A DNA stretch of 64,000 bases from Sphingomonas sp. Leaf34 (lineage in GTDB: Bacteria; Pseudomonadota; Alphaproteobacteria; Sphingomonadales; Sphingomonadaceae): assembly GCF_001421805.1 (NCBI RefSeq), contig NZ_LMLC01000002.1:620001-684000 (forward strand), read 5' to 3'. A program made the position numbers and the translations under genes. Below the pieces are notes generated by a model that saw nothing but the letters and a program-made list of their open reading frames with translations, was not told where the DNA came from and made no database searches. Positions within the stretch are counted from its first letter, which is position 1, and each line of letters starts with the position of its first letter. Below, in pieces: positions 29,292 to 30,965 of the stretch.

Positions 29292-30341
29292 TTACGGTTG
29301 CGCCGCGGGGCCGCCGGGAAATGACGGACGCGCCCGTACCGCCATCGTACCGCGATCGGCATCGTAGAGGATATCGTAGGCTAGATACGGGGTCACACCC
29401 ATGCGTAGCTGCGCGGCCTGCTCGCCCGGCTTGTCGATCGCCGAGTATTTCGTCATCTGGCGGCGGTCGTTCAGGCGAAGCGTCATGCCGGGTGAGCGGG
29501 CGTCCGGCGCGCCGAACACGAACCGCGCAGGTGCGCCAGCTATCGCTTGCGGGAACATGCCCGCGTTAAAGACGCCGATCCCAGGTGCGCCAGTATCCAG
29601 TGTCGCGTTCCCGCAAGCACGCGCGGGCCTTGGCGTCGGCCGGTACAGGCATGCCAGCACCTGACCGGGGTTTTGCCCTGACGGCACCTGGCGGAAGCCG
29701 GCTTCGTCACGCGCGTTCGGGTTCAGCATCAGCGTGCCAGGTCGCCCCGATCCGGGTTGCGGCAGGCTGACGATCCAGCGGTGAATGCCGAGCTGGACGA
29801 ACGGATTGCGTGGGATCGCGTCAAGATTGGGCTTGATGCCGATGATCCCGAGAAAGCCTTCGCCGGGAAGACCGTCGCCCATCACCCGGTATCGCCCGAT
29901 ACCCAGCCTGGCCGCACATGCGTTGCCTCCCTTTGCGCAATGGACACCGAGCACCTGTTGAACGCCGATGACGGCGGACCGGTTGCCGACCCCGATCTGG
30001 CCACGGGCAATCGGGCCATCGAGCACGACGCCGCTGCCGAACGGTTCGTGATTGGCCTTGCCGGTCGACTGCAACCCAGCCTGTGCGTCTGGCAGAAGAC
30101 GCAACCCTGCCGATCCGGTATCAAGTCCGACTAGCACGGGTTGGCCACCGACCGAGATCGGTATCGCGTACCGGGTGGTGCCGTTGCTGAGTTGAAGCTG
30201 GCGGATCGGCACCTCCGCGCGTCCAGAAGCCGGTCCGGAGCGAAAGTCTCCATCGACGCGCTGCGCGATCAGCGGCGGCGACGCAGCCATGGTCATCACC
30301 ACTGCGCTGACAACGCCTGACGCGGTCCTTCGATAGGTCAT
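29292..30341 (-). CDS. Exported pepsin-like aspartic protease candidate with two DTG motifs
   Basis: 349 residues from the ATG at 30341, with AAGGA nine bases upstream. Signal peptide to about LIAQ (27). Two catalytic-type motifs: VGLDTGSAGLRLL (Asp74) and ATLDTGAPGIGVF (Asp249), 175 residues apart, near the spacing in bilobed pepsins. Between them GFLGIIGI, NPFVQLGIHRWIVSL and PGTLML resemble the pepsin sequence after the flap. Single-DTG retropepsin-like domains are common in bacteria; a two-DTG single chain is rare. Four Cys in the central part could form disulfides. Periplasmic or secreted; substrate unknown. Confidence 0.7.
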   Translation of the reverse strand: MTYRRTASGVVSAVVMTMAASPPLIAQRVDGDFRSGPASGRAEVPIRQLQLSNGTTRYAIPISVGGQPVLVGLDTGSAGLRLLPDAQAGLQSTGKANHEPFGSGVVLDGPIARGQIGVGNRSAVIGVQQVLGVHCAKGGNACAARLGIGRYRVMGDGLPGEGFLGIIGIKPNLDAIPRNPFVQLGIHRWIVSLPQPGSGRPGTLMLNPNARDEAGFRQVPSGQNPGQVLACLYRPTPRPARACGNATLDTGAPGIGVFNAGMFPQAIAGAPARFVFGAPDARSPGMTLRLNDRRQMTKYSAIDKPGEQAAQLRMGVTPYLAYDILYDADRGTMAVRARPSFPGGPAAQP

Positions 30342-30401
30342 GGGTGTCGTTCCTTGTATCACGTCTCGCTGGGCAACGATTGCGGTGTGCGCCGCGCCCG
30401 C

Positions 30402-30920
30402 CTATTGCTCGCCGGACGCCTTCTTCAGGCTTGCAAGCGCCGCGGAAGACCCTGCGAGCACACGCGTTACCAGCCTGCCGTCCGAAGATGCGGGCTTCGC
30501 AGCATACGCCTCGGCATAGCTGCCCGAGGTCGCCATGCTGAACCCCAGGTCGACGAGTTTGCCCTGCGCATATCGGCGAGCGAGCATTCGACGCGAGACG
30601 GCCGTCCCCAGTACCTTGGGATTGGGATCGAGCCAGACGGTCCCGTGGGAGTCCGCTTTGCCGATGTGGCAATCTATCGGCTGCGCGGTCTGCTCACCGT
30701 TGTTCATGCGTGCGACGCAGGTGCCATGATCCGCGCAGAACGAGAGCCCGGTCGCATCGCGCCGAACGAAGTCCGCCGTCACGATCTGACCGGTCCTCAA
30801 CCGGTTCCCGCTATCGTCGGCGACGGGGCGCAGGATCCTGACCTTGCACTCGGGCGTCTCCCTCGCGATCGCCGCAGTGGAGAGGAAAGGCAGGACGACG
30901 AGCAGGCCAAACAATTTCAC
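30402..30920 (-). CDS. Exported hypothetical protein
   Basis: 172 residues from a GTG at 30920 with GGAGA seven bases upstream; the upstream part of the open frame lacks a signal. Leader KLFGLLVVLPFLSTAAIA, cleaved near AIA. The mature protein has five Cys (PECKV, LSFCADHGTC with two, IDCHI). No known domain. Placed directly upstream of the pepsin-like gene on the same strand with 60 bases between; it could be a partner, inhibitor or substrate, but that is only position-based. Confidence 0.6.
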   Translation of the reverse strand: MKLFGLLVVLPFLSTAAIARETPECKVRILRPVADDSGNRLRTGQIVTADFVRRDATGLSFCADHGTCVARMNNGEQTAQPIDCHIGKADSHGTVWLDPNPKVLGTAVSRRMLARRYAQGKLVDLGFSMATSGSYAEAYAAKPASSDGRLVTRVLAGSSAALASLKKASGEQ

Positions 30921-30965
30921 GGGGTTTCTCCGTATTGTGACTATCAAACACATAAATAGCGGCGC

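Follow-up and report, generated by a model that had tools for sequence, protein, structure and literature searches.

A putative exported pepsin-fold aspartic protease of Sphingomonas sp. Leaf34 and its scattered bacterial relatives

We analysed a 64,000-nucleotide stretch of the genome of Sphingomonas sp. Leaf34 (contig NZ_LMLC01000002.1, positions 620,001 to 684,000), here called the window, whose own numbering is used for the coordinates of its features. On its minus strand, at 29292-30341, lies a gene of 349 codons plus stop that opens with ATG (an alternative GTG start is present at 30362) and that is annotated, from its homologues and predicted fold, as a pepsin-like exported aspartic protease gene. 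Conservation across its relatives and a structural model make it probable that the gene product has the pepsin fold and works, as an exported monomer, as an aspartic endopeptidase that is most likely active.

Catalytic motifs, predicted fold and probable export

The original prediction had drawn attention to a DTGSAG and a DTGAPG motif in this protein, 175 residues apart. Both are present in the translation, beginning with D74 and D249. To judge their conservation, the window protein was aligned with 40 of the 52 loci returned by a profile-based scan (see below), which gave 41 proteins with a mean column identity of 33%. Twelve loci were left out of this alignment: L027, which is very similar to L026; L038, which is fused to a lipase domain and comes from a species already represented by another copy, L033; L048, with a stop inside the stretch taken; L058 and L060, which are fragments; L062, apparently close to L054 when the N-termini alone were compared; and L072-L077, which are remote. 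The Asp and Gly residues of both motifs are invariant (41/41), and the motifs are thus no chance resemblance. The first, D74-T75-G76 (30114-30122), keeps its Thr in 40 of the 41 proteins. The second, D249-T250-G251 (29589-29597), has Thr or Ser in the middle in 40 of them (24 Thr, 16 Ser and one Ile).

Further invariant columns include S77, G79, L80, G104, G109, C135, C142, G168, C231, C243 and G315. The cysteines among them form two candidate disulfides, C135/C142 in lobe 1 (29916-29939) and C231/C243 in lobe 2 (29613-29651). The flap hairpin, residues 97-109 (30015-30053), carries F101 in a column that the alignment equates with pepsin Tyr75, and that is occupied by Tyr in 32 proteins and by Phe in nine. 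In the hydrophobic-hydrophobic-Gly (psi-loop) motif of lobe 1, I166-I167-G168 (29838-29846), the first Ile is kept in 40/41 proteins; in its lobe-2 counterpart, R313-M314-G315 (29397-29405), only the Gly is invariant. The column that we take to match pepsin Trp39 holds Arg in 39 proteins, the window protein included, and Lys in two.

Directly after the second motif, at the equivalent of pepsin position 218, the window protein has A252. Ala is found here in 32 of the aligned proteins, Ser in five (four from Acidocella and one from Enterobacter), Gly in two, and Asp and Thr in one each. The change Thr218Ala was tied to neutral pH in renin by Rawlings and Bateman (PMC2761423). However, shewasin A has the same Ala and is described as most active at pH 4 (PMC4814920), and a neutral pH optimum is therefore not claimed from Ala252.

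A model of the window protein was built with AlphaFold2 from the same alignment. It scored 88.3 in the predicted local distance difference test (pLDDT) and had a predicted template modelling score (pTM) of 0.86, with residues 1-40 at pLDDT 49-58. VIA-align matched residues from about 38 to 341 to plasmepsin II, cathepsin D, chymosin, pepsin and Rv0977/PE_PGRS16, with listed Z scores of 22-24 and root-mean-square deviations (rmsd) of 2.6-3.3: Z 23.8 and rmsd 2.9 over 265 aligned residues for plasmepsin II, Z 22.8 for human pepsin, and Z 22.5 and rmsd 2.6 for Rv0977/PE_PGRS16, of which 252 of 280 residues were aligned. A Foldseek search with the model retrieved 565 chains at E ≤ 0.001, the best at 1.9e-15. 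The structure prediction that had been recommended as a check is thus a confident model of one bilobed pepsin fold; it matches pepsins in both lobes, and the single-chain, bilobed, pepsin-like protein of the original prediction is borne out at the level of a model with invariant catalytic motifs.

The same comparisons bear on a different explanation, in which two unrelated retropepsin-like domains are fused in one chain. Single-lobe families are indeed matched by aligned members at E ≤ 0.1 (Asp_protease_2 by 21 of the 41, gag-asp_proteas by five). However, the alignment to bilobed pepsins runs continuously through residues 38-341, the prediction is a single confident model, and the lobes resemble each other with their motifs in register. 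In a local hhalign comparison, lobe 1 matched lobe 2 over 51 columns with a probability of 59 and an E value of 9.2e-5, against 0.63 for a reversed control, although a forced global alignment was weak (probability 1.8). The fold model points away from such a fusion, which is hardly credible because this region matches bilobed pepsins as one fold.

The N-terminus, read by eye as MTYRRTASGVVSAVVMTMAASPPLIA-QR, has a basic n-region, a hydrophobic core and small residues preceding Q27. Residues 1-26 (30264-30341) form a putative Sec signal peptide with cleavage at LIA-QR, located within the stretch modelled at pLDDT 49-58. In a hydropathy scan, 40 of the 41 aligned proteins had a hydrophobic N-terminal stretch, the exception being L030, a row given a late start codon; a lipobox-like motif was present in two. 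These sequence features agree with the earlier claim that the protein is exported. A classical propeptide has about 40 residues, but the gap between the apparent cleavage site and the first strand measures about 15. This leaves little room for such a propeptide, and thus there is probably no long inhibitory pro-segment.

We propose that the chain would be exported through the Sec pathway, and that its two lobes would fold around a cleft, with the cysteine pair of each lobe probably disulfide-bonded in the oxidising envelope. As fold and conservation suggest, D74 and D249 would be paired beneath the flap hairpin, activate a water molecule and cut peptide bonds. The likeliest roles would be the processing of envelope proteins, as performed by the mycobacterial protease PecA, or peptide scavenging.

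Several observations weigh against this proposal. The window protein has Phe in the flap where 32/41 proteins have Tyr, which could lower activity. Its lobe-2 hydrophobic-hydrophobic-Gly motif is degenerate (R-M-G). The second motif of L030 is D-I-G. In addition, the PE_PGRS16 domain has the same fold, and its proteolytic activity was not observed in the published account (PMC6819658). The flap, the degenerate motif and the precedent of PE_PGRS16, together with Glu99 at a position where 27/41 proteins have Tyr and with the long terminal branch of the window protein in the family tree (1.19 versus a median of 0.39), favour an alternative in which the fold is kept for another role and the protein is not a working peptidase in this organism, but serves in binding or is an enzyme in decay. 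This alternative is unlikely, since the catalytic Asp and Gly are invariant, the window copy included, and the open frame is full-length with no internal stop. We favour an active endopeptidase, though in this strain the enzyme may be weak or altered, given its flap Phe and long branch. Among the seven bacterial A1 homologues described by Rawlings and Bateman, those of Marinomonas and Sinorhizobium likewise have Phe in the flap (PMC2761423).

Relationship to named protease families

When the window protein alone was compared with Pfam, PE-PGRS_C scored 14.9 bits, below its cut-off of 33, and neither PF00026 nor DUF3443 (PF11925) was matched at E ≤ 1; NCBIfam returned nothing relevant. The profile search against family A1, which had also been recommended, thus did not bear out membership, and of the aligned members just one matched PF00026 (E 0.025). 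At the same threshold of E ≤ 0.1, DUF3443 was matched by 31 members and PE-PGRS_C by 27, alongside the matches to Asp_protease_2 mentioned above. Among PDB sequences, penicillopepsin was found at E 0.025 with the window protein alone and at 1.9e-6 with the family profile, which also found the PE-PGRS protein 4ehc (6e-4, lobe 1 only). The DUF3443 cut-off of 25 bits was exceeded by the Rahnella homologue P0004 (26.6 bits) and by a match of 28.4 bits at a contig position within the Pseudomonas fluorescens copy L052, apparently the same gene.

Profile-to-profile comparison with hhalign gave a similar placement. The 41-member profile matched five DUF3443 proteins with a probability of 96 and an E value of 2.1e-9, in an alignment spanning both motifs. 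Lobe 2 alone aligned poorly (probability 0.4), so it is mostly lobe 1 that carries the link to DUF3443. A comparison with three bacterial PF00026 proteins gave a probability of 48, over the first lobe only. We place the window protein among the pepsin-fold aspartic proteases, in a family close to DUF3443, and not in A1; judged by these comparisons, it is distantly related to DUF3443 and to the PE-PGRS_C/PecA domain.

From the sequences of its members, DUF3443, too, seems to be a family of exported aspartic peptidases, as yet uncharacterised, and aspartic peptidase is the functional hypothesis that we offer for it. The five members read carry DTGS.GLR as the first motif and DSG or DTG as the second, and lipoprotein-like N-termini were recognized by eye in five (L096, L102-L105). 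They differ from the present family in having other invariant Cys as well as inserts. A literature search on DUF3443 found no mention of it in the library covered, and the literature on bacterial pepsins and pepsin-like proteases did not name the present family among the matches listed. A search of the Leaf34 genome for DUF3443 gave no match, but control genomes were equally silent, so no absence can be inferred from it.

The PE-PGRS_C/PecA domain (PF20729; 4ehc) resembles the window protein in its bilobed fold, export and DTG/DSG pair. PecA is described as an exported, surface-associated protease whose D293G mutant fails to process substrates, and, unlike the window protein, as carrying a PE domain and being secreted by a type VII system (PMC6819658). 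The window protein has no Pfam match to a PE domain at E ≤ 1 and has a signal-peptide-like start instead.

With the bacterial pepsins of MEROPS A1/PF00026 (shewasins), the window protein shares a single-chain bilobed fold, two D[TS]G motifs and the Ala after the second motif. It differs from the published ones in being apparently exported, in its two invariant cysteine pairs and in the Arg that presumably corresponds to pepsin Trp39. The bacterial A1 homologues were reported from seven species, all predicted to be intracellular and without signal peptides (PMC2761423), and shewasin D is described as preferentially cytoplasmic, acid-active and inhibited by pepstatin (PMC4814920). Bacterial retropepsin-like proteases, such as APRc of Rickettsia and secreted enzymes of Pseudomonas, are reported to have an aspartic catalytic motif, and some of them are secreted. 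Retropepsins (A2) are described as one-lobed, obligate dimers (PMC2761423), whereas the window chain holds both lobes. Aspartic enzymes made up 0.6% of bacterial secreted peptidases in one survey (PMC6411800).

With the present family, the bacterial pepsin-fold proteases gain an exported branch found mostly in Gram-negative bacteria, where the mycobacterial PecA is a surface-associated exception beside the A1 homologues predicted to be intracellular (PMC6819658, PMC2761423). As a tentative suggestion, which we consider possible but clearly less likely than not, DUF3443, the PecA-type domains and the present family may have branched from a single lineage, widespread in bacteria, of exported pepsin-fold proteases with one chain, whose lobes are still similar in sequence around the catalytic motifs. 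If this is true, bilobed pepsins have an old exported branch in bacteria, beyond the handful of cytoplasmic ones. The likeness between the lobes also bears on the origin of two-lobed pepsins.

Distribution and gene neighbourhoods

The distribution of the protease family is patchy. The Leaf34 genome has a single copy, and 17 strong copies (E < 1e-40, with 33-43% identity outside the own copy) were found in 15 of 295 genomes of the genus, the own genome included. Seven further genomes of the genus, with matches at E 2e-4 to 0.007, were dropped as likely spurious because these matches were short and partial. The profile-based scan covered 84,980 species and returned 52 loci, the last several of them remote. 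They are scattered over the alpha-, beta- and gammaproteobacteria plus one Nocardia; the genera are Sphingomonas, Caulobacter, Phenylobacterium, Lichenibacterium, Acidocella, Beijerinckia, Pseudomonas, Enterobacter, Stenotrophomonas, Ralstonia, Burkholderia, Nocardia and others. A plasmid search yielded one record, from Rahnella, with 27.5% identity. In a phylum sample of 299 genomes, eight had profile matches at E ≤ 1e-5, the own genome among them, and those of the other seven were partial or in pieces. A sample of 196 genomes of the order contained the own copy only, a single-sequence peptide-pattern scan of genome-contig and viral-contig collections found no relatives, and a phage collection gave no match.

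The family's early apparent rarity was partly an effect of sensitivity, because many members came to light when the genus was searched and when the scan was based on the alignment. The original prediction had also held that pepsins are few in bacteria. This fits A1 proper, with PF00026 in 5/299 genomes of the phylum sample (four above the cut-off), but the exported branch was met at 52 loci in the large scan, the remote ones included. DUF3443 was present in 5/200 phylum-sample genomes (four above the cut-off).

In the family tree, which was midpoint-rooted for drawing only, a Pseudomonas syringae copy (L040, 6001-7059) forms a group, on starred branches, with the window protein and two copies from sphingomonads. 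All remaining rows of the larger set that encloses this group are sphingomonad. The nesting of L040 among sphingomonad copies suggests a transfer between classes, and horizontal transfer is the likely origin of this copy.

The neighbours of the protease gene differ between lineages. In the sphingomonad loci L035, L037, L046 and L047, it directly follows a fabD-like gene (Pfam acyl transferase, E 3e-31 in L035; in the other three the gene is one that we take to be fabD-like), and it is here an accessory gene inserted beside a core fatty-acid gene. In Acidocella (L054, L059, L062, L064 and L065), the start of the protease gene overlaps by 4 nucleotides the end of a transporter gene, presumably AmpG-like. 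Such varied neighbourhoods imply that the protease behaves as an accessory gene in its own right. The minus strand of the window carries, between 27312 and 35157, genes for an SGL lactonase-like protein, a BD-FAE esterase, a beta-1,2-mannosidase-like GH130 protein, a ROK kinase and an MFS_2 sugar transporter; these carbohydrate genes were not taken as evidence of the function of the protease. In S. jinjuensis (L038, 5929-7764; L006 is the same copy), no stop separates the protease frame from a GDSL/SGNH lipase domain, which gives a fusion of 612 residues with pepsin-like and esterase domains (Lipase_GDSL_2, E 4.6e-23).

The cysteine-rich gene upstream of the protease

A small Cys-rich exported gene had been noted beside the protease. 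The gene is real, and it genuinely accompanies the protease gene in five sphingomonad copies. It lies at 30402-30953 on the minus strand, encodes an exported-type Cys-rich protein of 183 residues and ends 60 nucleotides upstream of the protease ATG. Homologues conserve every one of its five cysteines except that at residue 2. Four more protease copies have a homologue of this gene directly upstream, one in genome G252, two in G255 and one in G279, so that the pairing, always on the same strand, is found in five copies in four genomes. For the start codons chosen, stop and start overlap by 1-4 nucleotides in four of the five pairs, and in these four copies the pair is therefore probably co-translated. 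In one sphingomonad clade, the protease is probably made together with a Cys-rich protein that, speculatively, may hold, target or restrain it.

Strand, position and overlap would fit a module in which the protease is under the control of the Cys-rich protein, acting as its inhibitor or chaperone. We consider such a module rather doubtful, given how loosely the two genes are associated. The Cys-rich gene was found in 8/295 genomes of the genus, one of them (G302) with a very weak match. Within the stretches examined, it is missing beside 12 of the 17 protease copies of the genus and thus accompanies only five, while G316, G317 and G420 have a Cys-rich-like gene with no protease. The Pseudomonas copy L040, nested in the clade, has no Cys-rich match in a 13-kb stretch. 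The fold of the Cys-rich protein gives no strong lead to a module either. A model from four sequences (pLDDT 82, pTM 0.68) has a small beta domain and C-terminal helices, and its best structural match, an SH3-like one at Z 4.9, is too weak to name a fold. No strong structural match to a known inhibitor was found, though weak matches to a model from so few sequences exclude no fold.

A partner in an operon throughout the family was also considered and rejected: no neighbour shared family-wide was seen among the 25 largest recurrent clusters of flanking open reading frames, several of which were filled by shadow frames of the protease, and the Cys-rich gene is clade-specific. Cys-rich homologues with no protease in the stretch examined are also present in L080 and L083. 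L080 carries, in addition, a transposase-like open reading frame, presumably of the IS3 type, which suggests loss or movement.
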